Shown here: piece by piece, positions 1 through 35,049 of the stretch
How the letters are laid out: every line of letters starts with the position of its first letter
Position numbering within the stretch: the first letter of the stretch is position 1
NCBI GenBank assembly: GCA_003235575.1
Contig: QJVW01000086.1
Coordinates: 1-39,796 of the forward strand
Reading direction: 5' to 3'
DNA length: 39,796 nucleotides
From: Candidatus Eiseniibacteriota bacterium
Lineage (GTDB): Bacteria; Eisenbacteria; RBG-16-71-46; SZUA-252
The notes under the pieces: model-generated
What the model was told of the DNA's origin: nothing
Seen by the model: only the letters and a program-made list of their open reading frames with translations
The model's database searches: none
Made by a program: the position numbers and the translations under genes

Positions 1-557
1 TAGTACTGCTGCCGGTTGTTTTCTTTGAAATCCAGGATCAACTCTTCCCTCTCGGGACTGTAACCGGCAGGGTTGGCCTTCCACTTGTCGAAGCTCCAGT
101 TCTCGTCGGCGTACGCCTCGAACTCGTCTTCCTTCGATTTGCCGCGGTCGTGGTAGTAGAGGTAGGTCACCCACGTGGCGCCCTCGAGTCCCAGATGCAC
201 CCACCCGCGCTTGTTGCCGGCGTAGAGATGCCCCGTCCCGGGCACGAGGAGGTTCATCAGGAACGCGCGGCCCGGCGATTTCGCGGACGCGGCGTCGGCA
301 TCGGCCGCTTCGTCCGTAGGCGTACCCACGGCGGGGGGCGGCATCGGTTCGGGAACGGTGTCGGCGATGGCGCGTTGCGCCAGAAGGATTTCTTCGGTCG
401 ATTTCACATGGAAATCGATGGGAGAGGCGAGACAGGCGCTGGCCCCCAGAATCGTCACCATCGCGACGAAGAGGAGCACGGATGTCTGCTGGTTTCTGTT
501 CAGGGTACGAGCCCCCGTTACCGGGCGGATATGGGGTTTATACAACGACTTAATCAT
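1..557 (-). CDS. DUF5683-like membrane-associated protein, 3' end cut by window edge
   Basis: The frame is open from an ATG at 557 to the left edge (about 185 codons, no stop reached), so the C-terminus is missing. A GGAG Shine-Dalgarno site lies 6 nt before the ATG, 13 nt after the stop of the M6 protease gene, so this is the next gene of the same operon. A hydrophobic stretch at about residues 27-45 looks like a signal peptide or anchor and is followed by an Ala/Pro-rich linker. From about residue 97 comes a segment of the type FLMNLLVPGTGHLYAGNKR, then a hydrophobic/aromatic stretch. The phrase 'nonpolar, PG.G.LY.G' is typical of DUF5683 and related small membrane proteins often found near T9SS genes. 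Function is unknown. Family assignment is by motif only. Confidence 0.7.
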   Translation of the reverse strand, partial: MIKSLYKPHIRPVTGARTLNRNQQTSVLLFVAMVTILGASACLASPIDFHVKSTEEILLAQRAIADTVPEPMPPPAVGTPTDEAADADAASAKSPGRAFLMNLLVPGTGHLYAGNKRGWVHLGLEGATWVTYLYYHDRGKSKEDEFEAYADENWSFDKWKANPAGYSPEREELILDFKENNRQQY

Positions 558-570
558 ATCTGCTCCGGGC

Positions 571-3500
571 CTACCTGACAATGGCGAACTTCTGGAATGC
601 GATCTCGCTGGTGGCCCCACGTTTCGCTTCGAGGCGTACCAGGTATACCCCGCTTGCCAGTCCCTGGAGCCGGATTTTCTCCACGTTTTGGGCCGGTGAC
701 GTTGCCCCCTGCAGGGTGCGCAGCAGGGTTCCGGATGGATCCATGATTCGGATCTCGATCTCCGTCACCCCCTGATCCAGCGTGTACGCAATGCCGATCT
801 CGTTGCCGCGTGCGGGGTTGGGATAGCAGTAGAAGGACCCCTTCGAAACCAGCGCCCCGCGGGCGACGGGCGGCGCGAGGAGCGCATCGTCGAAGACGGA
901 GCTACGCCGGCGATCACCGTGCAGTCCCGCCCACGACGTCCGCGCGCTGACGCCCGACTCCGTGAACACCGCGCTGTCCGCGCGCGCCGCAACCTGGATG
1001 ACGTCCCACTGACCCTGGTCCCCCACGCCGACCACATGGAGCCATGCCGGTCCGGCCGGGTCCGGGGCGAAATCGGAGCCGTTCAGCGACGTGAGGAGCG
1101 GGGTCGCGTCGGGAGAGCGCTCCATGCCGACCGGCCACCCGGCGAGCGATCGCCCGCGATCGTTCAGCGCGACGAGGAGCCCGTCCTGCAGCGCGACGAG
1201 GACGTCGGATCGTCCGTCACCGTCGAGGTCGCCGATCACCGGGGCGCCGGCCCCACCGATCGAGCCCGCCTGGTAGCGCGACGCGAGCGCCACCGGCCAA
1301 CCGAGCGGCTCGACGCCGTTCCGGGTCCAGCGGTGCAGGAAGCCGCGATCGTCCGCCGCGAACACTTCGGGATAGCCGTCCGCGTCGAGATCGCCCACGG
1401 CGGGCGCTCCGAGCACGCCGGAGGCGCGCACCGGCCAGCCCGGAAGCTCCGTCCCCGTGAGATCGAAGGCGTGCACGACGCCCGCGTCGGGATCGATCAC
1501 GACGAGTTCCAATTCCCCGTCGGGTTCGCGATCGAGGTCGATGCCGACGAGGTGCGGGTTGTAGTCCGTGCCGGCGCCGGGATCGCGCCAGACGACGTCG
1601 ATCGCGCCGACGCCCTTCCCCGCCGGATCGACGATGCGCAGGTGACCGTCGCGCGTTGCGTACGCGATCGAGTAGCCGCCCGCGCCGTGGAAGCGGCCCA
1701 CGGCCAGATTGCCCGTCACCGCGGAGACGACCGGGGCGCCGCCGTCGAGGATCGTATCGCAGAGCGCCGCCACGAGCGGCGCGACCGTGATGCTGTCGGA
1801 GGGGGTTACGGCGAAGACGCGGCCGTCGCTGCCGCCGACGAGGACGCTGCCGCCCGTCGTCAGGACCGGCGCCGTCGTGGCGGCGACCGAAGCGCTCTCG
1901 AGCACCGGCGGCCACCCGAAGAGTTGGATCCCCTGCGCCGCCGTCTGGGAATCGGGACGCACGGCGTAGACCTTGCCGTCCTCGCAGGTGGCCACGATCC
2001 CCGCGCCATGGCGCGCGAGCGGATTGCGGCGGAAGAGCGAGTCGACGAAGAGCACCGGGCCCCGGATCGCCGCCGGCAGCGGCATGAACTCGCCCGATTC
2101 GCGGCCGTTCACGTAGGGGCGGCCGTCGGCCATCCAGGCGAGAATCAGGCTGTCCGCGGCCGTGACCAGGGAGCGGCGCCCGTCGTGGAGCAGGCTCCCC
2201 GACGTGGGAGCGCCCAGGCCACGGCCGGCCGCGCTCAGGATCGGCCAGCCGGGCACGCGCGTCTCCGACTCCACGGTGATTCCCATGTCGACGGCGGAGG
2301 GCGTCGTGATCCGGATGGTGGTTCCACTCGTGCCGCCGTCGTTCGTGGCCGTGCTCGGGTTCGTGTTCGGCCCCAGCACGGTGTGGTTTCCCACGAAGAA
2401 CGGATCGTAGGGGCTACCGTAGAAGTAGAACGAATTGAGGTCGCCGATGTCCTTGATGCCGTCCGCCTCCAGGAGCGCCACGCCCAGCCGGTTGGGATTC
2501 GAGTTGATTCCGTAGTCGGGGTTCGCGTTCGGACCGCAGACGACCAGGGAGTCCTCGACCACCTCGCCCTCGATGGTGCAGAAGACCGATTCGTCCACGT
2601 GCCAGACGAGGACGCCCTGCCCGGGGAGCAGGAAGTCGTACTCCTTGTCCCCGACCGTGTCGGAGAGATCGTCGCTGGAGAGCCCCGGTCCGAGGATGAC
2701 GTTCGTGGTCGAATCGCGGTCCAGGTAGAGCGCGTTGTCCCCGTTCAAGTCGGTCTGCCGGTTCTCCACCAACAGGTACTCGTCGGCGTCGAGCGGCACG
2801 TAGAGAAACCGGTTCTCGAGCTGCGTCGCGCGAAGCGTCGTGGTCAGCGACCGGCCGGGGTCGGTGAACTCGAGGCCGTTGGGCCACAGGATCGATTTGG
2901 TCCAGGGGTCGAGGCTCGTCGGCATGATCCCGCTTACGATCACGATCTCGCCGGTCTTCGAATCCTGCACGGCCGTGCCGAGGAGGTACCCGGAGTCCAT
3001 GTTGCTCCAGACGCCCACCGCGGGAAAGAACGTGTAGATGTCGTAGAGGTCGGGCAAACCCTGCGTGTGCCCGAATTCATGGGCCAGCGTCCCGTTGATG
3101 GCGCCCAGGAACCCGTCCTGGTTCTCGGTCTCGGGCATGACCAGGCCGCCGTGAATCCCCACCGCGCCGTCGTTCACCGCCGCCGAATCGCTCAGGCGGA
3201 TCTGGAACGTCGGGATGTCCCGCTCCGAGTCGCCGCGCAGATCGGACTGGAAATCGGCGCCCGCGTGGAAGACCGCGACCACGTCGAAATCGCCGAACGG
3301 GATGGAATCGGTGGCGTCCGCGGCCAGGACCGCATCGCGGAAGAACCGCTGCGCCTCGTCGAACGAGGCGGACCCAAGCGTCCAGGGGCCGTAGCGACCC
3401 GTGTCGCCCAGGCGGTAGGCGGCGTTCTCCGCCTTCGGGTAGACGTCGTACTCGACGACCGCCTGCCCGTACGACTGTTTCTCCCAGTACCGCGCCATCG

Positions 3501-3999
3501 CCTCCAGATGGGAGAGGAAGTACGTGCGGTTGTGGGGCGGCGGATCGATGATCAGCCCGAGCGCCTTGCCGTCGCGCATGTCGAACCGGCCGTCCGGAGT
3601 GCTGGTGAGCGAGCCGAGGCTATCGGTGTCGAATTCGATCCTCAGCCCCAGAATGCGGATCGTATCGGGCGTGCCCACGAAGGCGATCGTGCGCGCGAGG
3701 CGCCCGTCCCTGGCCGGCGCCAGGAGCGGCGGACGTCGGCCGCTGACCCATGGCGCCCGTGAAGCGCCGCCCACCCGATGCGGGGCCGCCTTTCGGAGTT
3801 CGAGCCGCCGCTCGGTCATGAGGCGCATCGTCTCGCGGTCTCGGACCGACAGCGCTTCGCGCGCGGGGCGACGGACGCGCCACGCCGACGGCTGTCGGGC
3901 GGAGCCGTCCGCTCCAAAGGCAAACGAAGGAGCCAGGCCCTCGAATGAGACCTGGCTCCCTAGGATCGCGATGAGAATCCAGTGCGTGATTCGCCGCAC
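571..3999 (-). CDS. M6-family secreted metalloprotease with FG-GAP-like repeats and T9SS-type C-terminal domain
   Basis: 1142 aa. An N-terminal hydrophobic segment (about 7-30) is a likely signal peptide, which supports the GTG start at 3999 although no Shine-Dalgarno site is visible. It lies 13 nt after the porV stop and may be translationally coupled. The zinc site HEFGHTQGLPD has His307, Glu308 and His311, and the following PDLYD is characteristic of peptidase family M6 (InhA-like). From about residue 590 to 1010 there are repeats with DLDxDG calcium-loop-like motifs alternating with GWPV, as in FG-GAP/beta-propeller domains. The last ~89 residues begin with a YPNP motif and have the Ig-like fold pattern of type IX sorting / FlgD-Ig domains, ending in basic residues. 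The position after PorU-PorV suggests an exported, cell-surface or released protease carried by that system. Substrate is unknown. Confidence 0.88.
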   Translation of the reverse strand: MRRITHWILIAILGSQVSFEGLAPSFAFGADGSARQPSAWRVRRPAREALSVRDRETMRLMTERRLELRKAAPHRVGGASRAPWVSGRRPPLLAPARDGRLARTIAFVGTPDTIRILGLRIEFDTDSLGSLTSTPDGRFDMRDGKALGLIIDPPPHNRTYFLSHLEAMARYWEKQSYGQAVVEYDVYPKAENAAYRLGDTGRYGPWTLGSASFDEAQRFFRDAVLAADATDSIPFGDFDVVAVFHAGADFQSDLRGDSERDIPTFQIRLSDSAAVNDGAVGIHGGLVMPETENQDGFLGAINGTLAHEFGHTQGLPDLYDIYTFFPAVGVWSNMDSGYLLGTAVQDSKTGEIVIVSGIMPTSLDPWTKSILWPNGLEFTDPGRSLTTTLRATQLENRFLYVPLDADEYLLVENRQTDLNGDNALYLDRDSTTNVILGPGLSSDDLSDTVGDKEYDFLLPGQGVLVWHVDESVFCTIEGEVVEDSLVVCGPNANPDYGINSNPNRLGVALLEADGIKDIGDLNSFYFYGSPYDPFFVGNHTVLGPNTNPSTATNDGGTSGTTIRITTPSAVDMGITVESETRVPGWPILSAAGRGLGAPTSGSLLHDGRRSLVTAADSLILAWMADGRPYVNGRESGEFMPLPAAIRGPVLFVDSLFRRNPLARHGAGIVATCEDGKVYAVRPDSQTAAQGIQLFGWPPVLESASVAATTAPVLTTGGSVLVGGSDGRVFAVTPSDSITVAPLVAALCDTILDGGAPVVSAVTGNLAVGRFHGAGGYSIAYATRDGHLRIVDPAGKGVGAIDVVWRDPGAGTDYNPHLVGIDLDREPDGELELVVIDPDAGVVHAFDLTGTELPGWPVRASGVLGAPAVGDLDADGYPEVFAADDRGFLHRWTRNGVEPLGWPVALASRYQAGSIGGAGAPVIGDLDGDGRSDVLVALQDGLLVALNDRGRSLAGWPVGMERSPDATPLLTSLNGSDFAPDPAGPAWLHVVGVGDQGQWDVIQVAARADSAVFTESGVSARTSWAGLHGDRRRSSVFDDALLAPPVARGALVSKGSFYCYPNPARGNEIGIAYTLDQGVTEIEIRIMDPSGTLLRTLQGATSPAQNVEKIRLQGLASGVYLVRLEAKRGATSEIAFQKFAIVR

Positions 4000-4012: not shown

Positions 4013-4984
4013 CTAGAACCGGTACGTGGCGGAGAACCGGTTCACGCGGTCGAGGAACTCCGACTGCGGCACCGAGGCGTAGTCGAATCGGAACCCCTTG
4101 TACGCGAGCCCGAACCCGTACGTCGGATCCACGATCGTGCCGACCGGATCGCTGATGTATCCGAGGCGAAGCGCCAGGAGCCGGTTGAATTCGTACTCCG
4201 CGCCCGCGTTCCAGACGCTGACGCCCAGTTTCTCGCCGGGAAGCAGGAAGCGGTTGGCGTCAACGGCCACCAACACGCGATGGATCTCGTTCTCGAACGG
4301 CGTGTAGGCCACGCCGACCTTGAAATTGCGGCCGAGCGGGTCGGACTGATCCTCGTCGATGTAGGCGATGTCGGGTCCGAGGTTCTGAATCACCGCGCCG
4401 AGCGACGCCTTCAGCGCGGGCATCTTCCAGAGCATGCCGATGTCGGCGCCGAACGTCGTGCCGCGGCCGGCGCGCCCGTCGAGCGTCACCGACGCCGGCG
4501 CGAGGTCGACGCGCGCCAGCTTCAGGGCGACGCCGAAGCCGATGTTGTCCATGATCTCCGTCCCGTACGCGATGGCCGGGGCGACCTCGTAGGAGGTGAA
4601 TTCCCCCGTCGAGTTTCCCTGGTCGTCGGTCGCCGGGCTCTTGCCGTAGGAGAGGTACCCCACGGCGGCGCCAAGCCCGCCCCATCCCTCAACGTGCTGC
4701 ACGTACGAGAGGTAGGAGAAATTCACGTCGTCGGCGAGATCCGGAACCAACTGCGTATACATGAAGGAGGCGTTGTGGCCCTGGGCGAACGCCATGGCGC
4801 CCGGGTTCCACCAGATCATGTTGGCATCGCCGGAAACGGCAGCGTGGGCGCGGCCCATGCCGTCCGAGCGCGCGCCCGGGGCGATAAGAAGCGACTGGGC
4901 GCCGGCCTGCGATTGGGCGTGGGCGGTGCTTGCCAGCCCCGCCAAAAGCAGGAACGTCAAGCACATGGAAGCGATGCGACTCAT
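4013..4984 (-). CDS. porV: PorV/PorQ-family outer-membrane beta-barrel protein
   Basis: 323 aa. Cleavable signal peptide at 1-23 ending in AHA-Q. The mature protein opens with the PorV/PorQ signature (APGARSDGMGRAHAA, then NMIWWNPGAMA) and continues as alternating amphipathic strands to a terminal Phe, as in outer-membrane barrels (FadL-like fold). In Bacteroidota, PorV shuttles T9SS cargo from the translocon to the PorU sortase. Here it directly follows the PorU-type gene, the same order as in Porphyromonas. Strong Shine-Dalgarno AAGGAGGT 6 nt before the ATG. It has its own candidate promoter (5046-5074) and a terminator-like hairpin in the leader (5005-5030), so it may be expressed more strongly than the upstream genes. 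PorQ or a generic PorV-like paralogue is the alternative. Confidence 0.87.
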   Translation of the reverse strand: MSRIASMCLTFLLLAGLASTAHAQSQAGAQSLLIAPGARSDGMGRAHAAVSGDANMIWWNPGAMAFAQGHNASFMYTQLVPDLADDVNFSYLSYVQHVEGWGGLGAAVGYLSYGKSPATDDQGNSTGEFTSYEVAPAIAYGTEIMDNIGFGVALKLARVDLAPASVTLDGRAGRGTTFGADIGMLWKMPALKASLGAVIQNLGPDIAYIDEDQSDPLGRNFKVGVAYTPFENEIHRVLVAVDANRFLLPGEKLGVSVWNAGAEYEFNRLLALRLGYISDPVGTIVDPTYGFGLAYKGFRFDYASVPQSEFLDRVNRFSATYRF

Positions 4985-5004
4985 TCATGACCTCCTTACA
5001 GGAC

Positions 5005-5030
5005 AAAAAACTGGGACGCCGGAGCGCCCC
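5005..5030 (-). terminator. Terminator/attenuator-like hairpin in the porV leader
   Basis: On the minus strand a 7-bp stem (GGGGCGC / GCGTCCC, one G-U pair) closes a TCCG loop and is followed by AG and six T. It lies after the porU stop and about 8 nt before the porV Shine-Dalgarno site. It fits an intrinsic terminator ending the dnaE-porU transcript, or an attenuator for porV, because the candidate porV promoter is upstream of it. Confidence 0.6.
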
Positions 5031-5045
5031 TCTCGTGACCCGAAA

Positions 5046-5074
5046 AGTGTAGCGGAGATTTCGGCCCTCTTCAA
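5046..5074 (-). promoter_or_regulatory. Candidate sigma-70-type promoter for porV
   Basis: Minus-strand TTGAAG (5069-5074), spacer of exactly 17 nt, TACACT (5046-5051). Each box matches 4 of 6 consensus bases. It lies in the 103-nt gap between porU and porV. The transcript would start near 5039 and include the hairpin at 5005-5030 and the strong porV ribosome site. Confidence 0.5.
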
Positions 5075-5087
5075 GGGTGGCTGCCGG

Positions 5088-8000
5088 TCACTTGGTTCGG
5101 AGCGCTTTGCCCACAGCATCCACGCGGCCGCTTCCCGGCGCTTCGGCGGTAACATGAAACAAGTACACCCCATTGGCCACCTTTTCTCCGCGTGAATCGC
5201 GGCCGTCCCATGGAATGTAGTTCTCCCCCGACTTCCCTTCCAGCGCCCAGGCCCGGACCCGCCGGCCCGCGACTGTCAGAATGGTGATCTTGAGGCGGGC
5301 CGGCTGGTTGAGACGCACGTGGAGGTAGGTGTCGTCGGCGAACGGATTTGGATAGTTGAACACCTGACTCAGGTCCAACGGCTGCCCCGCGGCCGCGCGG
5401 GCGGCCACCTCGATGACGAACGTGGCCACGCCGATGTTGCGATACGTATCGGAGGCATGGACTTCGAGCCGATGCGCCCCGTCCGCCAGCGCCGGGAGGA
5501 CCAGCTCGACCGTCCCGCGGGTGGCGCTCCCCCGCTCGTACCGGAAACCGGACGTCAAGTCGATGGGTAGCCCCGCGTCGTCGAAGAGCACGAAGATCGC
5601 GTGGGCGTTGTCGAACCGGGTCAAGTCGATGCCGCTCGAGTCCTCGAGCGCGATGGTGACGCGGTCCCCGGGCGCGAACGTCGTGTCGGGCGTGGCGACC
5701 AGGCTGATTTCCGGCGGCAGGAGGTCCACGCGCGGCGAAAGTCCGACGCCGATCCGCAGCGAATCGACCGCGAGGCCCACGCCGTGCCCCCCGGCTTCCT
5801 CCACCAGCGCCTCGACGCGTGCGCCGGGTCCGGACACGCGTCCGTCGACCGGTATCGTCATGCGGATCTCGAACGAGCCCCGAACGAGCGGCACGTCGCC
5901 TTGATAGAGGACGGGCCCCGCCAGGTCGTACGGGGCGACCCCGGGAATGCCGCCCTGAAAGCCGCTGAGAAGGCGCCGCGACGGGGGTCCGAGCACGCGT
6001 AGGCTGGCGGTCCCGTTGGCGGTCGTGTCGGGAGATCCGTCGTCGAACACGGCGTGCCCGCGAAGCAGCATCTGCTCCCCACGCAGCACGGAGTCCAGCG
6101 GCGCTCCTTCCCACACCGCGCGCCCCCGCGGGAGGGGGAGCCGCACGCCCGGTTCGCCGAGGAAGTTGTACTTCCGGACCGAGAAATTCACGCCCCGGTT
6201 CTTGGCGCGCGCCCAGGCAAGCCCCGCGGTGCGCAGGGTGTCGACGCGGGGCGTGGCCGGGAAGAGCTCGTCGATGAACGCATCGTTCAACTCGGTGCTC
6301 TCCGCACCGAACACTTCCTGCGACGCGGCGAGGGCGATCGCGGCGCCGCCGGACGGCTGGCGCAGCAGGAGTTCCGCCAAACCATCCTGGCGATAGTCGT
6401 TGAACCGGCCCACCGTGCAGCTCATGAACGCCCAGACCGGGGGCATGGCCGCGTTCGTCAATTGGGCCGCGTCCGTCGCGCGAAACACCTGTTCGTCGGC
6501 GATCACGCTCCCGGAACCATGGCCGACGAAGTCGACCAGCCAATTTCCGCGATTCACCGCGCCGATGAACGCCGCGCGCGCGTCGGGCTTGGACGTCTTG
6601 CCGGAGTCGGCGAACGCGTAATCGTTGAGGTAGACCTTTTCGCGGGTCGTCGGGTACGGCAGGTGCTCGCGGTCCTTCCGCTCCATCTGCCGGGTATGGT
6701 CGAGCCCCACGAGGTCGCGCTGTTGGAAGGCGCTCCACTTCCAGGCGTCATCCGCGCAGAGAAGGACGCGATTTCTCGCGAGATCGAAGTCCCGGTTCCC
6801 CTCGAGAAGGCGCCGCTTGCCGCGAACCATATCGAGCGCCTCCTGCGGCGTTCGCGCCGGGAGTCTTCCGACCGCGAGATCGAGAAGCTGGTCGGCGGGT
6901 CCGTCCAAGCGGACCAGCCAATCGTCGGCCACGAACTGCTCCGCCAGGAACGGGTCGTAGGCGTTGTCGTAGGTCGGCACGTAGTCGACGACCCGGAGCC
7001 CGGAGTAGTTCAACGGGTCCCCCGAGGCATCGCCCAGGAGGCAGACGTAGAGGGGCGCGCGCGTCCAATGCCTCGAGGCGTAGGCGAGGAAGTTGCGAAC
7101 CGCGACCGGATCGGGCGACCCGCCGCCGAACTGGGCGAAGATCCGGTCGGTGGTGGCCACCACGGCCCGGGGCGAGGCGACCCCCTCCAGATAGAGCGAT
7201 CGCTCGGCGGCCAGCGACTCCGCCGCCGCGTGAAACGCGGGCGGCGCCACGACGACGTAGTCGGCCTGATTCGAGGGATCGAGCAGGTTGGAGATCGTGC
7301 GTATGCCCGCCGGCGGCGCGAAGAGCGCGAGGCTCGTCGGGGAAAGCGCGCGCGCGCGCGCCACGAGCGCGTAGCGCGGACGGTGTCCCGGTCCGGCGCT
7401 GTCCTCCATCGTGAGCGTGAAGGGGGCCGCCGCGCCGCTCCAGGCGACGCCGGTCAGACGAACCGGGCGCGCGGGATCGGTGCGATCGAGGAGACGCGCG
7501 GTCGTCGTGTCGGTGACGGCGTCGATCGCGTACTGGTATCGGCCCGCGGGCACGGAATCAACCGCGGCGAAGAAGAGCGTGTCGGCGTTCGCGGCGAGCC
7601 GCTTGGGATAGGAGACCTCGAACCACGCCACGTACTGGACGTCGACACGGTTGGGGTCCCCGGGCTCGTCCAGGTTCGGAATGCTGATTCCCACGGTGTC
7701 GACCACGGAGAGCCCCACCGGAAATCCGCCGCCGGTGAGATCGTTTGCCTGGCTGAAATTCCATCCCGCCGAATCGACCACGGCGCGATTCCAGGTCAGC
7801 TTCGCCGCATGATCGGGGAGGCCCGTGCCGATCGAGCTCCCCGCGCCCCAGACCCGGAAGCGCACCGATCCGGCCCCGCCCGCCACAGGCGTCGGAAGGG
7901 CCACCGGATAGACGAGGCTCCCCCCTTCCGTCAGCAGCCGCTCGAACCAACGCTCCCATCGAAGCCCCGGGGTCAGGAGATCGAACTCGCCGATACGATT

Positions 8001-9248
8001 CTGCTCGATGTGAATCGTGTGCGTGACCGAGGTCCTGGGCGGCGATCCCGCCGCGCTGGGCGTCGCGTCGCGCTCCGCGATGCGCAGCGGCGGCGACGCG
8101 AAGGCTCCCGGGCCCCACGTCAGCCACTGCGACGATTCGGTCGTCCGCTCCGGCTCCAGGTACTCCGAGGTTCCGCCTTGGGCGAGATCGGCGCCGAATC
8201 CATACGACCCGGTTCCGTAGAAGTAGAGCGCGTCGGCCCCGTTGAAGGCGCCGTCCCCCTCGCCCACCACCTCGATGGCGCATTCGCGCAGCGAGTCGGG
8301 ACCGAGGTCGACGTCCAGGCTTTCCGGCAGGTCTCCGGGGGGCGCGCGGAAGAGCCGGAACGTCGCGGGGTCGATGCTCCCGACCGCGACGCCGGCGGCC
8401 GCGAGGTCGCCCGGGGTCACGCGGTAGAGCCCGAGGCGCGAGGTGCCGATCCGCACCCAGGGGCGCGACGGTTCGACGCGCATCGGTCCGGGGCCGGCGT
8501 GCTCCAACGGAGAGGCGGGCGCGCCGGGGACGGACGGCGCCGTCGACGCCGCGCTGGGACCGCGGCCGCGACGGGACGGATACGCCGGGCCGACGGCCTC
8601 GGCGGACCCGGTGATTTCCGTCTCGGCCGTGGACGAACCGGCGCGATCATCGAGGGCGGCGACCGGCCGGTCCCACGATATGTCGAGCGTGACCTCCTCG
8701 AACTGGGTCGCCATGCCCGTCGCCGGGTCCCAGGTCACGGGGTCGATTTCCACGGCGAGGATTCGAGCGCCGCGCGCGGCCATCGGCGTCACCGACCCCA
8801 CGAGCGGGCGGCGGGGCGCGGCGGCGTACCGCGGCTCGCGATACGCGTCGAGCACCTCGCCCGCCGACCGCCGCGCGCGCACGGCCGCCTCGCTGAGGAG
8901 GCGCGCGAAGGGCACGGGACGAAGCGCGCCCAGCGATCGCGTTCCACCCGGAAGCGCGCGGGCCCGCGCCTCGACATCCCATGGAATCCGAACGAGGACG
9001 ACGCGGACGGGCAGCTGCGGTTCACCGGCCGGCGCGGCGTCGACGCCCCCGGGTATCGAGATCTCGTCGAGCAGGAGGCCCGCGATCTCGTCCCGGCGGA
9101 CAACGGCCTCGCCGATCGGCACGCGGACCCGATACCCGTAGGGAGTGACGTCGGATACGGCGGGGCGCGGCGCCTTCGCCGCAGCGGGCGCGGCGAGGAG
9201 CGCGGCCACCAGCGCGACAAGCGTCGGGGAGGCGCGGCGTGTGGACAT
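5088..9248 (-). CDS. porU: Gingipain-type (C25) peptidase, PorU-like T9SS sortase
   Basis: 1386 aa from the ATG at 9248, whose A is also the last base of the upstream Trm112-like stop (TGATG). The frame stays open 44 codons further, but that part overlaps the upstream gene and lacks a signal peptide. Signal peptide at 1-25. A long N-terminal region of beta-rich prodomain type precedes the C25 caspase-like domain at about 650-1000. That domain has LLGDASGD (~738), the catalytic His910 in DFVGHGSG and the catalytic Cys944 in FMSCTVG. The last ~96 residues start with FNYPNPF and match the FlgD-Ig/type IX C-terminal domain. PorU in Porphyromonas is itself a C25 peptidase with a retained C-terminal domain and works with PorV to cleave cargo and attach it to lipopolysaccharide. 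The direct porU-porV order supports this role over a plain gingipain. Confidence 0.85.
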   Translation of the reverse strand: MSTRRASPTLVALVAALLAAPAAAKAPRPAVSDVTPYGYRVRVPIGEAVVRRDEIAGLLLDEISIPGGVDAAPAGEPQLPVRVVLVRIPWDVEARARALPGGTRSLGALRPVPFARLLSEAAVRARRSAGEVLDAYREPRYAAAPRRPLVGSVTPMAARGARILAVEIDPVTWDPATGMATQFEEVTLDISWDRPVAALDDRAGSSTAETEITGSAEAVGPAYPSRRGRGPSAASTAPSVPGAPASPLEHAGPGPMRVEPSRPWVRIGTSRLGLYRVTPGDLAAAGVAVGSIDPATFRLFRAPPGDLPESLDVDLGPDSLRECAIEVVGEGDGAFNGADALYFYGTGSYGFGADLAQGGTSEYLEPERTTESSQWLTWGPGAFASPPLRIAERDATPSAAGSPPRTSVTHTIHIEQNRIGEFDLLTPGLRWERWFERLLTEGGSLVYPVALPTPVAGGAGSVRFRVWGAGSSIGTGLPDHAAKLTWNRAVVDSAGWNFSQANDLTGGGFPVGLSVVDTVGISIPNLDEPGDPNRVDVQYVAWFEVSYPKRLAANADTLFFAAVDSVPAGRYQYAIDAVTDTTTARLLDRTDPARPVRLTGVAWSGAAAPFTLTMEDSAGPGHRPRYALVARARALSPTSLALFAPPAGIRTISNLLDPSNQADYVVVAPPAFHAAAESLAAERSLYLEGVASPRAVVATTDRIFAQFGGGSPDPVAVRNFLAYASRHWTRAPLYVCLLGDASGDPLNYSGLRVVDYVPTYDNAYDPFLAEQFVADDWLVRLDGPADQLLDLAVGRLPARTPQEALDMVRGKRRLLEGNRDFDLARNRVLLCADDAWKWSAFQQRDLVGLDHTRQMERKDREHLPYPTTREKVYLNDYAFADSGKTSKPDARAAFIGAVNRGNWLVDFVGHGSGSVIADEQVFRATDAAQLTNAAMPPVWAFMSCTVGRFNDYRQDGLAELLLRQPSGGAAIALAASQEVFGAESTELNDAFIDELFPATPRVDTLRTAGLAWARAKNRGVNFSVRKYNFLGEPGVRLPLPRGRAVWEGAPLDSVLRGEQMLLRGHAVFDDGSPDTTANGTASLRVLGPPSRRLLSGFQGGIPGVAPYDLAGPVLYQGDVPLVRGSFEIRMTIPVDGRVSGPGARVEALVEEAGGHGVGLAVDSLRIGVGLSPRVDLLPPEISLVATPDTTFAPGDRVTIALEDSSGIDLTRFDNAHAIFVLFDDAGLPIDLTSGFRYERGSATRGTVELVLPALADGAHRLEVHASDTYRNIGVATFVIEVAARAAAGQPLDLSQVFNYPNPFADDTYLHVRLNQPARLKITILTVAGRRVRAWALEGKSGENYIPWDGRDSRGEKVANGVYLFHVTAEAPGSGRVDAVGKALRTK

Positions 9249-9424
9249 CAACCGCGCTCGATCTTCTCGGCTTCCTCGGGCAGCATGACCGGAACCCCGT
9301 CCACGACGGGGTAACGAAGCGCGCACGCCTCGCAGGTCAGCGTGTCGGCATCGCGGTCGTAGTTGAGGTCCCCACGACACTGCGGGCAGACCAGTATGGC
9401 GAGCAGATCATCGCTCAGGGGCAT
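9248..9424 (-). CDS. Trm112/UPF0434-family small zinc-binding protein
   Basis: 58 aa. Two CxxC knuckles, Cys13/Cys16 (CPQC) and Cys31/Cys34 (CEAC), followed by RYPVVDGVPVMLPEEA, the standard C-terminal motif of the Trm112p-like family. It starts at the ATG at 9424, 23 nt after the accA stop, and its TGA overlaps the porU ATG by one base, so the two are translationally coupled. In eukaryotes and archaea Trm112 activates methyltransferases. The bacterial members are of less certain function. No methyltransferase is adjacent here. Confidence 0.88.
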   Translation of the reverse strand: MPLSDDLLAILVCPQCRGDLNYDRDADTLTCEACALRYPVVDGVPVMLPEEAEKIERG

Positions 9425-9447: not shown

Positions 9448-10413
9448 TCACGCGGGCGGCGGGGCCGGATCCGGAGGCGAGGCATCCGGCGCGCCGTTCG
9501 CCGCGGCCGTCGCCTCCTCCAAATAGACCCCCATCTTCAGATATTTCTCCAGTCGCCGGTCCAGCAACTCCTGCTTCGGCGTTCCGATCAGGGACCGGAC
9601 GTGGCGCATGACGGCATCCTGAAGCTCGTCGATCACGTGCAGCTCCAAGAGATCGGATGCGGTCAGGCGGAGCGCCTCGGCGGCTTGTTCCGCCTTGGTC
9701 GCGTCCTTCCATAGGATCGCCGCGCACCCTTCCGGCGTGATGACCGAGTAGATGGCGTTCTCCATCATCAGCACGACGTCCCCGACGGCCAGCGCCAGCG
9801 CGCCTCCCGAGCCGCCCTCTCCAATGACGACGCTGATGATCGGCACTTTCAGATGCGCCATCTCGAGGATGTTCCGGGCCAGCGCTTCCGATTGGCCCCG
9901 CTCCTCCGCGCCCAGGCCGGGATACGCCCCCGGCGTGTCGATGAGGGTCACGATGGGGACGCCGAAGGTGGCGGCTGTTCGCATGATCCGAAGCGCCTTG
10001 CGATAGCCCTCGGGATGCGCCATCCCGAAATTGCGGTAGATGTTCTCCTTCGTGTCGCGGCCCTTCTGGTGGCCGATGATGACCAGCGGCATGTCCTCCA
10101 CGACCGCGAATCCGGCGACGATCGCCGGATCGTCGCCGAACTTGCGGTCGCCGTGCATTTCCACGAATTCGGGCGCGATGACCTTGATGTAATCGAGCGT
10201 GTAGGGGCGTCGCGGATGGCGTGCGAGTTTCACGCGCTGCCAGCGCGTCAACTTCGCGTAGATCTCCTTGCGGAGCCGATCCGCCTTTCGCTCGAGGCGA
10301 ACCAGTTCCTCCATCGCTTCGGGGGACTCCGGCGTCGCCAGGCCGCGAAGGTCCTCGATCTTTCGCTCGATATCGAGGATCGGCTTCTCGAAGTCGAGCC
10401 AGGTTCCGTTCAT
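9448..10413 (-). CDS. accA: Acetyl-CoA carboxylase carboxyltransferase subunit alpha
   Basis: 321 aa, full length for the family. With AccD it transfers CO2 from carboxybiotin to acetyl-CoA to make malonyl-CoA, the first step of fatty acid synthesis, in the cytoplasm. N-terminal helical region (FEKPILDIERKIEDL), then the crotonase-like core with FVEMHGDRKFGDDPAIVAG, DTPGAYPGLGAEERGQSEA and GEGGSGGALALAVGD, all standard AccA signatures. Shine-Dalgarno GGGAGGA lies about 6 nt before the ATG. It begins 21 nt after the dnaE stop. The dnaE-accA order is also found in E. coli. No accD is in the window. The last ~15 residues are Pro/Ala-rich and probably disordered. Confidence 0.96.
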   Translation of the reverse strand: MNGTWLDFEKPILDIERKIEDLRGLATPESPEAMEELVRLERKADRLRKEIYAKLTRWQRVKLARHPRRPYTLDYIKVIAPEFVEMHGDRKFGDDPAIVAGFAVVEDMPLVIIGHQKGRDTKENIYRNFGMAHPEGYRKALRIMRTAATFGVPIVTLIDTPGAYPGLGAEERGQSEALARNILEMAHLKVPIISVVIGEGGSGGALALAVGDVVLMMENAIYSVITPEGCAAILWKDATKAEQAAEALRLTASDLLELHVIDELQDAVMRHVRSLIGTPKQELLDRRLEKYLKMGVYLEEATAAANGAPDASPPDPAPPPA

Positions 10414-10434: not shown

Positions 10435-13947
<3,513 letters not shown>

Positions 13948-19905: not shown

Positions 19906-20103
19906 TCAGTCCGGCAGGATCGCGCCCTCGACAGGGCACGCTTCGAGGCATGCATTGCAGGAGACGCAGTCCTCGGCGACCACGAGGTACCACGTCGTTC
20001 CCTTGGCGTTTTGACCATCGCCCTTTTTGATGCAGTCCACAGGGCAGACGTCCACGCAGGACGACTCGCCCTCACATATGTCCTTTACGATTTCATAGGC
20101 CAT
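19906..20103 (-). CDS. Dicluster ferredoxin (7Fe/8Fe type)
   Basis: 65 aa. Two cluster motifs: Cys10-x5-Cys16-x3-Cys20-Pro-x2-Cys24 and Cys46-x2-Cys49-x2-Cys52-x3-Cys56-Pro. The second is a standard [4Fe-4S] motif. The first, with a wide C-x5-C gap followed by CPVDC, resembles the 7Fe ferredoxins of Thermus and actinobacteria, so a [3Fe-4S] or [4Fe-4S] cluster is possible. Soluble one-electron carrier. Shine-Dalgarno GGAGGA 6 nt before the ATG, 28 nt after nadA. It could accept electrons from KorAB, encoded just beyond nadA on the other strand, or serve NadA. Confidence 0.92.
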   Translation of the reverse strand: MAYEIVKDICEGESSCVDVCPVDCIKKGDGQNAKGTTWYLVVAEDCVSCNACLEACPVEGAILPD

Positions 20104-20131
20104 GCATTCCTCCGCAACGGCGTTCGGTCTC

Positions 20132-21217
20132 TCAGCGCACCCGGAGCATGCGATCGAGCGCGATGCGCGCTCCCTGCTTCGTGGCCTCGGGCACGCGAAT
20201 GGGGTTCACGATCTCTCCCCGCACCAAGCTCTCCAGCGCCCACAACAGATTTTGCGGTGAGATTCGGTACATGGTAGCGCAGAGACAAAAATCTTTCGAC
20301 AGAATCACGATGCTCTTTTCCGGCATCTGTTGCGCGAGCCGGTTCACGAGGTGGTACTCGGTGCCGACCGCCCACCGCGACCCGGCGGGAGACTCCCGGA
20401 CGGTGCGGATGATGAATTCGGTGGATCCGACCGCGTCGGCCTCGGCCACGACCTCGTGCGGCACCTCGGGGTGAACGAGAATGCGCACGTCGGGATCCTC
20501 CGCCCGGCGTTCCCGCACGTGCTTCGCGGTGAACTTCGTATGCACCGAGCAGCAGCCCTTCCAGACGATGACGCGCGCGGCGCGGAGTTCCTCCGCCGTG
20601 AGGCCACCCTGTTCCCGAGCCGGATCCCACACCATGATCTCCGCCTCGGGGATCCCCATGTCGATGGCCGTGTTCCGCCCCAGGTGCTCGTCCGGGAAGA
20701 AGAAAATCTTCTCCCGCTGCGCGAACGCCCACGTAAAGATCGCGCGGCAATTCGACGACGTGCAAACCGCGCCGCCCCGCTCCCCGCAATACGCCTTCAG
20801 CGCCGCGGTGGAGTTCATGTACGTGATGGGAGTGACCGAATCGATCCCCAGGCGTTCCAGCGTCGCCCCCGCCTCGTGGACATCGTCCGTCTGGGCCATG
20901 TCGGCCATGGAGCATCCGGCGTTCATGTCGGGGAGGATCACGGTCTGGTGCGGCGCGCGCAGGATGTCCGCGCTCTCGGCCATGAAATGGACGCCACAGA
21001 ACACGATGAACTCCGCTTCCGTCTGCTCCGCGCCCCATCGCGCCAGCTTGTAGGAATCGCCCGTGACGTCCGCGTGTCGAATGATGTCGTCGCGCTGATA
21101 ATGGTGTCCCAGCACGACCAGGCGTTTCCCCAACGCCCTCTTGGCGGCGGAGATACGGTCGGCCAGCGTCGCGTCGTCCAGATCGAGATAGGGTTCCAGG
21201 GCGGCTCGCGTTGTCAT
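20132..21217 (-). CDS. nadA: Quinolinate synthase
   Basis: 361 aa. Condenses iminoaspartate with dihydroxyacetone phosphate to quinolinate in NAD synthesis. The [4Fe-4S] ligands are likely Cys102 (MNAGCSMAD), Cys223 (KGCCSVH) and Cys311 or Cys313 (DFCLCATM), in line with the three conserved cysteines of the family. LGHHYQRDDI at ~36, TYMNSTAALKA at ~132 and CTSSNC at ~152 are further signatures. Start ATG at 21217; GGAAGG sits only 1 nt before it, too close to be a good Shine-Dalgarno site, while a TTGACG-17-AAAGAT promoter ends 7 nt upstream. The ferredoxin gene follows. No nadB or nadC is in the window. Confidence 0.96.
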   Translation of the reverse strand: MTTRAALEPYLDLDDATLADRISAAKRALGKRLVVLGHHYQRDDIIRHADVTGDSYKLARWGAEQTEAEFIVFCGVHFMAESADILRAPHQTVILPDMNAGCSMADMAQTDDVHEAGATLERLGIDSVTPITYMNSTAALKAYCGERGGAVCTSSNCRAIFTWAFAQREKIFFFPDEHLGRNTAIDMGIPEAEIMVWDPAREQGGLTAEELRAARVIVWKGCCSVHTKFTAKHVRERRAEDPDVRILVHPEVPHEVVAEADAVGSTEFIIRTVRESPAGSRWAVGTEYHLVNRLAQQMPEKSIVILSKDFCLCATMYRISPQNLLWALESLVRGEIVNPIRVPEATKQGARIALDRMLRVR

Positions 21218-21224
21218 CCTTCCA

Positions 21225-21253
21225 ATCTTTGCCGCCCCTCAAGCGGGCGTCAA
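21225..21253 (-). promoter_or_regulatory. Candidate nadA promoter
   Basis: Minus-strand TTGACG (21248-21253), 17-nt spacer, AAAGAT (21225-21230), then 7 nt to the nadA ATG. The -35 is the same hexamer as upstream of the PBP and GlmU-like genes. The -10 is a poorer match. Confidence 0.4.
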
Positions 21254-21348
21254 GGGCTTCCACGCGCGTGGGGGACGAATCGGCCGCCGGTCCGGGGCGT
21301 CTAAGGAGTCAGAGAACCGTGTCTTGCGATCCCCCGGCGCGGTGCCGC

Positions 21349-21377
21349 TGGACCGAACCGCCGTGTGCGCCTACAAT
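21349..21377 (+). promoter_or_regulatory. Candidate promoter of korAB
   Basis: TGGACC (21349-21354), 17-nt spacer, TACAAT (21372-21377; 5 of 6 consensus). The transcript would start near 21384 and carry a ~60-nt leader with a hairpin and a Shine-Dalgarno site, unlike the leaderless genes nearby. Confidence 0.5.
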
Positions 21378-21381
21378 CCCA

Positions 21382-21399
21382 GGCTCGCTCCCGCGAGCC
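21382..21399 (+). other. Perfect hairpin at the predicted 5' end of korAB mRNA
   Basis: GGCTCGC, loop TCCC, GCGAGCC: a perfect 7-bp stem starting at the predicted transcription start. No T-run follows, so it is not a terminator. A 5'-end stabiliser or protein-binding site is possible. Confidence 0.4.
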
Positions 21400-21444
21400 G
21401 GGCCCGTGGCGGCCCTCGCGTTCTCTCACGAAGGGGATTCCAGC

Positions 21445-23256
21445 TTGAGCGCGCCGACGCACGTTCGAATCAACGACTGCAATCTGCATGTCGCGACGGT
21501 CAATGGGTCCGGAAGCCAGACCGCCAATGCGACCCTGTTGCGCGCGATCTTCCAGATGGGCGTCCCGGTATCGGGCAAGAATCTCTTCCCCTCGAACATC
21601 GCCGGCCTCCCCACGTGGTTCACGATCCGCGTCAACGAGCGAGGCCACCTGGCGCGCACGCGGACCAACGACGTGCTGGTCGCCATGAATCCGGAGACGG
21701 CGGCCGACGACATCGCCGCCATGGGGCCCGGGACCGTGACGGTGGTGAACGCCGGCATCCCGCTTCCCGAGCTCCCGTCGGACCGAACGGTCCACGTCGT
21801 GCCCTGCGGCAAGCTGGTCGAGCCGATCGTGCCGGACGCCAAGCTCAGGAAGCTGGTCGTGAACATGATCTACGTCGGCGTGGTCGCCCATCTCCTGGGC
21901 ATCGACGCCGAGGAAATCGACCGGGCGCTGGGAAGCCAGTTGGGGCGGAAACAGAAGGCATTGGAGTTGAACCGCGCCGCGGTGAACGCGGGCTTGGAGT
22001 ACGCACGCGAGCATCTGCCGCCCGCGCCGGTTCGAATCGAGCGCCGGAGCCTGACCGATGGCAAGATTCTGATCGAAGGGAACACCGCGGCCGCCCTCGG
22101 CGCCCTGTTCGGCGGCGTGACCTTCGTCTCGTGGTACCCGATCACCCCGTCCTCCAGCCTGGCCGAGGCTCTTCAGGGATACCTGGAGCGCTATCGCCGC
22201 GATCCGCAGACCGGCGAGGCGACGTACGCCATCCTGCAGGCCGAGGATGAAATCGCCGCCATCGGGATGGTGCTGGGCGCATCCTGGGCGGGCGCCCGGG
22301 CGATGACGGCGACGTCGGGCCCGGGGTTTTCCCTGATGACCGAGTTCATCGGCTACGCGTACTACGCCGAGATTCCGGCGGTGATCTGGGACATCCAGCG
22401 AATCGGGCCGAGCACGGGACTGCCGACGCGGACGTCGCAGGGCGATCTGCTGAGCGCGGCGTTCAGCTCGCATGGGGACACGAAGCACGTCCTGCTCTTT
22501 CCCGCCAGCGTGGAAGACTGCTACCAATACGGCATGCAGGCGTTCGATCTGGCGGAGCGCCTCCAAACGCCGGTTCTCGTGATGAGCGATCTCGACCTCG
22601 GCATGAACGTGTCCATGGCGGAACCCTTCGCCTACCCCGAGGAGCCGTGGGACCGAGGCAAGGTCTTGACCGACGAGGAACTGGATCGCGTGAAGACGTT
22701 CGAGCGCTACCGCGACGTCGATGGGGACGGAATCCCCTACCGGACCATCCCGGGACAACGCCACCCGGCCGCGGCCTATTTCACGCGCGGCTCCGGTCAC
22801 GACGAGCAGGCGCGATACACCGAATCGAGCGAAACCTACGCCCGCGTCATGGACCGACTCGCGCGCAAGCACGAGACGGCGCGACGCTTGGCGCCGGGGC
22901 CCGTCATCGATCGCGCGCCGCACGCCGCGGTGGGCCTCCTGTCGTTCGGCTCGACGGCGTGGGCCATGGACGAGGCGCGGGAACGGCTGCGGGAGGACGG
23001 CCTGGAGACGTCGCACCTGCTGTTGCGCGCCTATCCGTTCCATCCCGACGTGCGCGCGTTCCTGGCGTCCTGCGAGCGCGTCTACGTCGTCGAGCAGAAT
23101 CGCGACGCCCAGATGGCGGCGCTGCTGCGCATGGACATGCCGGACCTGGCGCCTCGCATCCGGTCGGTGCTGCACTACGACGGGCTGCCCATCGACGCGC
23201 GGAGCATCGTGGAGCGCGTCCTGCACGGGGAGCGCGAGGAGGTGGTGGCCCGATGA
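21445..23256 (+). CDS. korA: 2-oxoacid:ferredoxin oxidoreductase, fused gamma-alpha subunit (KorA-like)
   Basis: 603 aa from a TTG at 21445, chosen because AAGGGGA lies 7 nt upstream and the N-terminus then matches the gamma domain. The longer open frame upstream covers the promoter. Residues 1-~190 form the gamma domain (NGSGSQTANATLLRAIFQMG). From ~207 comes the alpha, pyrimidine-binding domain with EGNTAAALGALFGG, YPITPSSSLAE, QAEDEIAAIGMVLGASW and TSGPGFSLMTE. With KorB it oxidatively decarboxylates a 2-oxoacid (probably 2-oxoglutarate) to an acyl-CoA, reducing ferredoxin, or runs in reverse for carboxylation. The ATG of korB overlaps its TGA. Substrate (2-oxoglutarate, pyruvate or branched-chain) cannot be fixed from sequence alone. 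Confidence 0.93.
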   Translation: MSAPTHVRINDCNLHVATVNGSGSQTANATLLRAIFQMGVPVSGKNLFPSNIAGLPTWFTIRVNERGHLARTRTNDVLVAMNPETAADDIAAMGPGTVTVVNAGIPLPELPSDRTVHVVPCGKLVEPIVPDAKLRKLVVNMIYVGVVAHLLGIDAEEIDRALGSQLGRKQKALELNRAAVNAGLEYAREHLPPAPVRIERRSLTDGKILIEGNTAAALGALFGGVTFVSWYPITPSSSLAEALQGYLERYRRDPQTGEATYAILQAEDEIAAIGMVLGASWAGARAMTATSGPGFSLMTEFIGYAYYAEIPAVIWDIQRIGPSTGLPTRTSQGDLLSAAFSSHGDTKHVLLFPASVEDCYQYGMQAFDLAERLQTPVLVMSDLDLGMNVSMAEPFAYPEEPWDRGKVLTDEELDRVKTFERYRDVDGDGIPYRTIPGQRHPAAAYFTRGSGHDEQARYTESSETYARVMDRLARKHETARRLAPGPVIDRAPHAAVGLLSFGSTAWAMDEARERLREDGLETSHLLLRAYPFHPDVRAFLASCERVYVVEQNRDAQMAALLRMDMPDLAPRIRSVLHYDGLPIDARSIVERVLHGEREEVVAR

Positions 23257-24323
23257 GCACGCCCGCGAACAAGACGCCGTCCGCCGCGCCCGCCGCCAAC
23301 CGGGTCGGGCTGACGCTGGCGGACTACAAGGGCGCCCGGTCGACGCTGTGCCCCGGTTGCGGGCACGACGCCATCACGAACAGCATCATCAACGCGGCCT
23401 TCGAACTGGGCCTGGAACCGCACCGCCTGGCGAAGTTGTCGGGGATCGGTTGCTCGAGCAAGACGCCCGCGTACTTCATGCGCCGTTCCTTCGCGTTCAA
23501 TGCCGTGCACGGACGCATGCCGTCGATCGCCACGGGCGTCCACATCGCGAACCGGGATCTCCAGCTGCTGGGCATTTCCGGCGACGGCGACACGGCCTCC
23601 ATCGGCATCGGGCAGTTCACGCACCTCATCCGGCGCAATGTTCCGGTCGTCTACCTGATCGAGAACAACGGCGTGTACGGTCTGACCAAGGGGCAGTTCT
23701 CCGCGACGGCCGATTTCGGCACGAAGGCGAAGGTGGGGCGGACGAACGAATTGATGCCGATCGACCTCTGCGCGCTGGCGATCGAACTCGGTTGCGGGTT
23801 CGTGGCGCGGTCGTTCAGCGGCGATCCGAAGCAGCTTCGGCCGCTCCTGAAGGCGGCGCTGGCGCACCGCGGCACGTCCGTCGTGGACATCCTGTCCCCC
23901 TGCGTGACGTTCAACAACCACGAGGGTTCGACCAAGTCGTACGACCACGTGAAGGAGCACGACGCGCCGCTTCACGACGTGACGTTCATCCCGCCCCACG
24001 AGCCGATCACGGCCGACTACGAGCCGGGCGAAGTCCGCCAGGTGACCTTGTTCGACGGGTCGCGCGTCACCTTGAAGAAGCTGGAGGCCGACTATGATCC
24101 GCATGACGGCATGGCGGCGATGGTGACCCTGCGCCGCGCGCGCGAGGCGGGAACGTTCGTGACCGGGCTTCTCTACGTGAACGCGCAGAAGCCCGCGTTC
24201 GACCGCGAGGTCGGCATGGTCGAAGCGCCCCTCGCCTCGCTGCCGCTCGACCGGGTGCGCCCGCCGCGGCGCGTGCTGGAAGAGATCATGGAAGCGCACC
24301 GGAGCGGCGCGGCCCCGCGTTGA
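23253..24323 (+). CDS. korB: 2-oxoacid:ferredoxin oxidoreductase subunit beta (KorB-like)
   Basis: 356 aa. Start ATG overlaps the korA stop (ATGA), with GAGGAGG about 10 nt upstream. [4Fe-4S] ligands Cys33 and Cys36 (LCPGCGHD), Cys67 (GIGCSSKT) and Cys217 (SPCVTFNN). The thiamine diphosphate/Mg motif GDGD (~110-113) continues into IGIGQFTHLIRRNVPVVYL and ENNGVYGLTKGQ. This subunit holds the TPP and the iron-sulfur cluster that passes electrons to ferredoxin. The C-terminal 110 residues (HDGMAAMVTLRRAREAGTFVTGLLY) are typical of KorB. The gene ends 30 nt from the convergent HMA-like gene. Confidence 0.95.
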   Translation: MSTPANKTPSAAPAANRVGLTLADYKGARSTLCPGCGHDAITNSIINAAFELGLEPHRLAKLSGIGCSSKTPAYFMRRSFAFNAVHGRMPSIATGVHIANRDLQLLGISGDGDTASIGIGQFTHLIRRNVPVVYLIENNGVYGLTKGQFSATADFGTKAKVGRTNELMPIDLCALAIELGCGFVARSFSGDPKQLRPLLKAALAHRGTSVVDILSPCVTFNNHEGSTKSYDHVKEHDAPLHDVTFIPPHEPITADYEPGEVRQVTLFDGSRVTLKKLEADYDPHDGMAAMVTLRRAREAGTFVTGLLYVNAQKPAFDREVGMVEAPLASLPLDRVRPPRRVLEEIMEAHRSGAAPR

Positions 24324-33473: not shown

Positions 33474-33568
33474 CGCGGGACGGATTCGCACCGCGGCGCC
33501 CCGCGCTGCATCTCAGGTAGTATGTAGTCCCCACCGATTCGGGGAACCAACGGAAAGGAGAGTCAGGA

Positions 33569-34180
33569 ATGGCGAAGCACGTGCTGAAGCCGCTTCCCTA
33601 CGCGAACGATGCTCTGAAGGGAATCGGCTCGAAGACGATCGAAATTCATCACGACAAGCTCTACGCGGGCTACGTGAACAAGCGGAACGAGATCGAGGAA
33701 GCGCTGACCAAGGTGGACCGGAGCAAGGCGAACCAGATCTACTCCGACATGCGCGGCCTGAAGAGCGAGGAGACCTTTGCGGCGAACGGCCAGATCCTTC
33801 ACGAGATCTACTTCTCCGTCATGGGGGGCGACGGCCAGCCGGTGGGTGAAGTCGTCGACAAGATCAAGGAAGACTTCGGAACGTTCGCGGCGTGGGAGGA
33901 GGATTTCAAGGCCTCCGGGATGTGCGCCCGCGGCTGGGTGGTGCTGGCGTTCGATCCGACGGACGGGCGGCTGCACAATTTCATCGGCGACGCCCAGAAT
34001 CAGGGTGGCGTCTGGGGCGCGGTGCCGATCCTGAACGTCGACACCTACGAGCATTCGTACTTCATCGACTACGGTTCGGATCGCAAGGCCTACCTCGAAG
34101 CGTTCATGCGCAACATCAACTGGGCCGAGGTCAATCGCCGGTTCGCGGCGGCCACCCAGATGGCGATGGCGAAGAAGTAG
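33569..34180 (+). CDS. Divergent Fe/Mn superoxide dismutase
   Basis: 203 aa. Dismutates superoxide to peroxide and oxygen. Metal ligands by alignment: His27 (TIEIHHDK), His78 (ILHEIYF), Asp158 and His162 (NVDTYEHSYF). Second-sphere positions differ from SodA/SodB: the usual HxxxHH becomes HHDKLY (Leu31 where His is typical), and DxWEHAYY is DTYEHSYF (Tyr for Trp). This resembles a known side branch of bacterial SOD-like proteins, so the fold is safe but activity and metal are not. No signal peptide, so cytosolic. Shine-Dalgarno AAGGAGAG about 6 nt before the ATG. A possible -10 TAGTAT lies at 33518-33523. A strong terminator follows at 34228. Confidence 0.9.
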   Translation: MAKHVLKPLPYANDALKGIGSKTIEIHHDKLYAGYVNKRNEIEEALTKVDRSKANQIYSDMRGLKSEETFAANGQILHEIYFSVMGGDGQPVGEVVDKIKEDFGTFAAWEEDFKASGMCARGWVVLAFDPTDGRLHNFIGDAQNQGGVWGAVPILNVDTYEHSYFIDYGSDRKAYLEAFMRNINWAEVNRRFAAATQMAMAKK

Positions 34181-34227
34181 CCTCGCGCCAGGCGGTCGAT
34201 TTCGATCCGCCGCGCGATTGCAGTCCA

Positions 34228-34267
34228 GCGGGCGTCCGTGCGAAATGCACGGCGCCCGCCTCTTTTT
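34228..34267 (+). terminator. Intrinsic terminator after SOD
   Basis: GCGGGCG-T-CCGTGC, loop GAAAT, GCACGG-CGCCCGC, then CTCTTTTT. Stem of 6 plus 7 bp with a single bulged T. It lies 48 nt after the SOD stop. Confidence 0.85.
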
Positions 34268-34345
34268 GACCTCTCCCCCCAGCCACCCTCCCGCTAACCG
34301 CTTTGTTTTCAAGATATAACGATCGCGCGACCAAGGGCGCATCTT

Positions 34346-34361
34346 CGGCATAGCCCTTGCT
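34346..34361 (+). promoter_or_regulatory. Sigma-54-like -24/-12 promoter element
   Basis: CGGCAT (34346-34351), five bases, TTGCT (34357-34361). The GG and GC are exactly 10 nt apart as in TGGCAC-N5-TTGCW, with mismatches at the first and sixth bases. Predicted start ~34372, 66 nt before the lipoprotein ATG. A TATAAC at ~34314-34319 is an alternative -10 but lacks a -35. Confidence 0.4.
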
Positions 34362-34437
34362 GTTCAGAAGTCGGGTTGATTCGAGTTTCATTTGTCGTCT
34401 GTTCGCGATGGGGATCGCGAGAACCAAGGAGACCGAC

Positions 34438-34989: not shown

Positions 34990-35023
34990 CGACCGCGCGA
35001 CGCGACCAGCCTCGCGATCCCCT

Positions 35024-35049
35024 CGGCCCGGACGGCAACGTCCGGGCCG
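35024..35049 (+). terminator. Perfect hairpin between convergent genes, probable terminator
   Basis: CGGCCCGGACG, loop GCAA (a GNRA tetraloop), CGTCCGGGCCG: an 11-bp perfect stem followed by TTCTTC on the plus strand. It lies 34 nt after the lipoprotein stop and 21 nt from the stop of the convergent gene. The minus-strand side lacks a T-run. Confidence 0.65.

Follow-up and report, generated by a model that had tools for sequence, protein, structure and literature searches.

The window analyzed here, a stretch of 39,796 nucleotides of DNA, very probably carries the attachment half of a type IX secretion system (T9SS) that Candidatus Eisenbacteria inherited vertically. Comparison of sequences and structures identifies PorU, PorV and SprA and underlies the sorting domains, the gene order, the tree and the lack of matches to PorK, PorL, PorM and PorN (PorKLMN); the transport route, the cleavage, the attachment to a glycolipid, co-transcription and the role of an M6 protein encoded beside the pair are inferred. 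The stronger point of the locus is that PorKLMN are absent in the sampled lineages outside Bacteroidota.

The porU locus and its gene array

The closest named PorU loci are those of Candidatus Eisenbacteria WS_7, WS_1 and EFPC_51 (identity 50–54%). The source genome (2.89 Mb in 159 contigs, 95% complete) is therefore that of an FCB-superphylum bacterium, Candidatus Eisenbacteria, and not of a member of Bacteroidota. A first-pass annotation had described a PorU–PorV pair outside Bacteroidota in one array with DNA polymerase, AccA and a Trm112-like peptide. All of these genes are present on the same strand, and position 9248, where that annotation ended the pair, is the likely start codon of porU. 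Both genes of the pair are real, but the cassette goes one gene further than described, with an M6 metalloprotease gene. The features are as follows.

10435..13947, minus strand: dnaE, for the DNA polymerase III alpha subunit, at the head of this array (Pfam DNA_pol3_alpha 343 bits; order kept in relatives)
9448..10413, minus strand: accA, acetyl-CoA carboxylase carboxyltransferase alpha (Pfam ACCA 429 bits; NCBIfam 438 bits, above cut-off)
9248..9424, minus strand: Trm112-like zinc-ribbon protein, 58 aa (Pfam Trm112p 54 bits; 1-bp overlap with the porU start)
5088..9248, minus strand: porU, type IX sortase, 1386 aa (ATG start, signal-peptide-like N-terminus)
6519..6521, minus strand: codon of the PorU catalytic His910
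6417..6419, minus strand: codon of the PorU catalytic Cys944
5091..5354, minus strand: PorU C-terminal sorting-type domain with YPNPF motif (FlgD_ig 35 bits, Por_Secre_tail 23.7 bits)
4013..4984, minus strand: porV, 14-strand outer-membrane shuttle
571..3999, minus strand: third cassette gene, encoding an M6 metalloprotease that also carries a beta-propeller and a C-terminal sorting domain
3067..3081, minus strand: HEFGH zinc-binding motif, intact, residues 307–311 of the M6 protein
3..557, minus strand: incomplete ORF beyond the M6 gene, at the edge of the contig (matches no family)

Along the array, the intergenic distances are 21 bp for dnaE–accA, 23 bp for accA–trm112, −1 bp for trm112–porU, 103 bp for porU–porV and 13 bp from porV to the M6 gene. 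Co-transcription with the housekeeping genes, as suggested in the first-pass annotation, would fit the −1 to 23 bp spacing from dnaE to porU, the 103 bp that follow, and the order kept across phyla. The porU–porV gap contains a terminator-like hairpin (5030–5013), such sites being about equally frequent in shuffled sequence, and the promoter and terminator scans stayed at chance level.

Our searches identified the C25 protein of the window as PorU. It scores 216 bits against Peptidase_C25 and 433 bits against NF033707, the T9SS sortase PorU family (cut-off 420), over model positions 5–1082 of 1095. When all PDB sequences were searched with it, one entry only was matched, 6za2 (P. gingivalis PorU, 134 bits). 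In the alignment with the P. gingivalis PorU active site, His910 and Cys944 fall on His655 and Cys688 of chain 6za2, and both residues are almost invariant across 17 relatives. The intact catalytic pair and the C-terminal sorting-type domain (FlgD_ig/Por_Secre_tail) that had been read from the sequence are thus upheld.

The genome encodes two further C25 proteins, with long branches and an unsure placement in the PorU tree. One is PorU-like (G000:C49, ~20058–24311; L141, 8059–12312, minus strand), with 182 bits against NF033707, under the cut-off, a PorU2-type N-terminal match of 88 bits and no adjoining PorV. The other (G000:C125, ~31772–35926; L142, 3773–7927, plus strand) has a C-terminal part like the M6-associated family. 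Paired PorU-like genes, in tandem or close together, are seen in Fermentibacterota (L103, L124) and Bacteroidota (L095, L096, L100, L112, L125).

The gene following porU encodes a PorV homolog, in the same order as in Porphyromonas. It scores 71 bits against the PorV Pfam model and 220 bits against NCBIfam PorV_fam (cut-off 90), and 144 bits against the stricter PorV equivalog NF033710, under its cut-off of 250. A phmmer search with it matched only chain F of 6h3i. Its AlphaFold model (pLDDT 84) has 14 predicted strands, and its best Foldseek matches are 8gl6_F and 6h3i_F, with a TM score of 0.81 to 8gl6_F (F. johnsoniae PorV) and ~0.55 to FadL/TodX.

In a PorU tree of 95 rows (quick IQ-TREE run, SH-aLRT support only), the Eisenbacteria rows form one group (SH-aLRT 99) near Krumholzibacteriota, Latescibacterota and Fermentibacterota. 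The window protein pairs there with a family relative and is not gingipain-like. Core Bacteroidota form a separate group (100), and the Ignavibacteria, Kryptonia and Chlorobi-type rows stand beside them. PorU–PorV is widespread across the FCB superphylum, with porV directly 3′ of porU in nearly all loci with room; it is absent beside porU in the Marinimicrobia (0/14), Fermentibacterota and KSB1 loci. Because of this distribution, and because T9SS in other FCB phyla has already been suggested in print (PMC11285876, PMC5837995), the pair outside Bacteroidota is less surprising than had been thought. The order dnaE–accA–trm112–porU on one strand is found in six of the seven Eisenbacteria loci read, and also in Krumholzibacteriota, Latescibacterota and two further bins. 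Its recurrence across phyla points to old vertical inheritance, which accounts for the housekeeping neighbors. Gene order and tree together argue for an array that is ancestral, not odd, and for vertical descent of PorU in Eisenbacteria.

SprA, cargo domains and the PorKLMN families

The first-pass annotation had proposed a search of the same genome for Sov/SprA, for PorKLMN and for a large number of C-terminal sorting-domain proteins. The genome carries one SprA/Sov gene (G000:C74, ~2200 aa), scoring 537 bits against TIGR04189 (cut-off 200), 98 bits against SprA_N and 162 bits against 6h3i_A (SprA). The FlgD_ig domain gave 55 matches, a few of which may be flagellar FlgD-like, and 47 of them lie above the cut-off. 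Among 29 genomes, comprising this one and its relatives, SprA was found in 25, and the PorU model matched in all 29, above its cut-off in 21.

Directly 3′ of sprA lies an M28 glutaminyl-cyclase-like gene (G000:C74; L132, 5410–6345, minus strand), which is also seen in L134, L135, L136, L137 and L138. Its best PDB match is the glutamine cyclotransferase 6qql (161 bits), the family was confirmed in L132 and L138, and the sprA–M28 pair adjoins lptF/lptG-like genes and nusA–infB. In Bacteroidetes, glutaminyl cyclase works on secreted proteins. Prompted by this gene, we considered a rule of Gln after the signal peptide, of which a crude count (4/58) gave no sign.

In the characterized systems PorKLMN are essential: PorLM is held to supply the energy for type IX secretion, which is passed to the translocon via the PorKN ring. 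GldM was found in none of the 29 genomes above. Among 20 named genomes it was absent from all 15 FCB members outside core Bacteroidota and present in the five core Bacteroidota controls. A second panel of 26 genomes comprised seven Eisenbacteria (95–100% complete for the six with completeness values), 14 other FCB genomes outside core Bacteroidota, and five core Bacteroidota; one of the 14, L062, is titled Bacteroidota and has a PorU that groups with Ignavibacteria. SprA was found in all 26 genomes. GldK, GldL and GldN were each above cut-off in 5/5 core Bacteroidota and in 0/21 of the others, which gave for GldK only weak FGE-like matches that were not counted. Among the genes around sprA and porU in the relatives' loci that were read, no alternative motor was seen. 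We found no paper stating that PorKLMN are missing outside Bacteroidota among the open-licence literature, preprints excluded.

The T9SS reading therefore stands in part: PorU, PorV, Sov/SprA and about 50 sorting-domain proteins are present, and PorK, PorL, PorM and PorN are absent. The absence of Sov together with PorKLMN had been named as evidence against that reading, and the result is split, with Sov present and PorKLMN absent in a genome that is 95% complete in 159 contigs. This is thus not a canonical complete T9SS, and the shared absence in the sampled non-Bacteroidota lineages makes it a T9SS variant. As both ring and motor are absent, the energy source would be a different or unrecognized machine, or none.

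The M6/beta-propeller gene

The gene that completes the porU–porV cassette encodes a protein with matches to the M6 Pfam family, FG-GAP and Por_Secre_tail (32 bits). Its AlphaFold model is moderate (pLDDT 68), with Foldseek matches that show the beta-propeller only. It resembles NF052323, a family of T9SS-dependent M6-like inactivated metalloproteases, in its M6-like domain, in homology over much of its length and in the type of its C-terminal domain. In contrast to that family, however, the window protein keeps HExxH, and it scores 212 bits against a family cut-off of 600. It is therefore a relative and not a member, and apparently an active one.

The M6 gene follows porV in every long-enough locus of Eisenbacteria, Krumholzibacteriota, Ignavibacteriota, Kryptonia and the Chlorobi-type group, and also in Zixibacteria. 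No M6 gene was seen next to porU in the loci of core Bacteroidota, Marinimicrobia, Fermentibacterota, Latescibacterota (one locus) and Cloacimonadota. HExxH is intact in 16/16 M6 sequences from Eisenbacteria, Krumholzibacteriota, Zixibacteria and two further bins (one genome counted twice). The 14 sequences aligned from the Ignavibacteria-type clade have lost the motif, one more being too fragmentary to judge, and the NCBI family name for this type of protein carries the word 'inactivated'. Since both the synteny and the pseudoenzyme are kept, a structural role of the M6 protein beside PorU and PorV is suggested, and the protein most likely serves the PorU–PorV complex as a surface partner or as early cargo.

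The switch from enzyme to pseudoenzyme (M6 genes of the window and of L047–L099), with an intact motif in the deep FCB lineages and its loss in Ignavibacteria-type ones, can be placed on a tree. In Eisenbacteria (L143–L147), a run of genes for secreted-looking proteins (DUF5683, DUF6677 and NHL propellers) lies 3′ of the M6 gene; these are possibly further parts of a surface complex.

PorZ, a surface protein of the P. gingivalis attachment complex that is linked to A-LPS delivery, consists of a beta-propeller and a C-terminal sorting domain. The window M6 protein shares propeller and sorting domain; unlike PorZ, it has one propeller region, preceded by a protease domain, and the PorZ family model gave no sequence match in it. 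PorZ is a possible functional counterpart.

Reading of the locus and known systems

In the mechanism that we propose, cargo with a FlgD_ig-type C-terminal domain would reach the periplasm via Sec and then traverse the outer membrane by way of SprA, whose gene lies at another site of the genome. PorV would pick it up at the lateral gate of SprA and bring it to surface-held PorU, whose Cys944/His910 pair would cut off the C-terminal domain. PorU would then probably join the cargo to a surface glycolipid, and the M6/beta-propeller protein would most likely be early cargo of the complex or one of its partners at the surface.

We see an even chance that FCB bacteria outside core Bacteroidota retain an ancestral SprA–PorV–PorU export, often with the M6/propeller surface protein, which works without PorKLMN on another energy source or none, and that Bacteroidota gained the PorLM rotary motor and its ring only afterwards, possibly along with gliding. 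A more doubtful explanation is a complete T9SS whose PorLM-type motor and PorKN-type ring are too divergent for the family models. SprA_N reaches only 98 bits here versus 520–600 bits in core Bacteroidota, so other T9SS parts may be equally diverged, and the weak FGE-like matches of the GldK model recur in many of these genomes. However, the four families fail together in 21/21 genomes, among them those of Ignavibacteria and Kryptonia, which stand nearer to Bacteroidota in PorU and SprA, while the same models score 110–600 bits in 5/5 controls. Nor do the Eisenbacteria loci that were read have a motor-like gene pair adjoining sprA or porU. The absence of PorKLMN would also agree with a relic or repurposed set, in which SprA, PorU and PorV were kept for another surface task and not for powered secretion, but the tens of sorting-domain cargo genes in this genome and the long conservation of the PorU catalytic residues and gene order make this improbable.

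C25 and FadL-like folds are also found outside T9SS, and with two more C25 proteins in the genome the pair might be taken for a gingipain-like protease next to an ordinary FadL-type porin. This is hardly credible, given that the two paralogs are separated from PorU by their scores and sit on long branches, and the gingipain identity is refuted by the NF033707 score above cut-off, the sole PDB match being PorU, and the fold of PorV, which is closer to T9SS PorV than to FadL/TodX. A recent transfer of porU–porV from Bacteroidota, from which canonical systems are mainly known (PMC4793230), appears just as implausible. The separate Eisenbacteria PorU clade, a GC content of 69.4% versus 68.4% for the contig, and a surrounding array common to several phyla all speak against it, and PorU tree and gene order refute it. 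The attachment half of a vertically inherited T9SS is the reading that we retain.

An earlier survey, with a model that brought together ten core components and expected most of these to be clustered, reported T9SS only in Bacteroidetes (PMC4793230). Elsewhere, BLAST results suggested T9SS in Chlorobi, Fibrobacteres and Ignavibacteriae (PMC5837995), and the sorting domain was described throughout Kryptonia (PMC4737851). The translocon step of our proposed mechanism is modeled on PMC10994853, in which PorV takes cargo from the gate of SprA and the motor provides input. Our results suggest searching for T9SS by SprA, PorU and PorV, as opposed to the ten-component clustered model. Lineages that have the translocon, shuttle, sortase and cargo yet lack PorKLMN provide a natural test of whether the PorKLMN machine is needed for export at all or was added later for gliding and high-rate secretion.

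Compared with the T9SS of P. gingivalis and F. johnsoniae, the window system has homologous PorU, PorV and SprA/Sov, many C-terminal sorting-domain cargo proteins, and porV directly after porU. It differs in lacking PorK, PorL, PorM and PorN, in sorting domains that are mostly of the FlgD_ig type, in its setting among dnaE–accA–trm112 and in the M6/propeller gene after porV. The T9SS-like sets of other FCB phyla (Ignavibacteriota, Kryptonia, Krumholzibacteriota, Latescibacterota and Zixibacteria) share SprA in all tested, the PorU–PorV pair, the absence of PorKLMN and, in most, the M6 gene after porV. They depart from it in the Ignavibacteria-type M6 protein without HExxH, in Latescibacterota (one locus) without M6 at that place, and in the Marinimicrobia, Fermentibacterota and KSB1 loci without porV beside porU.
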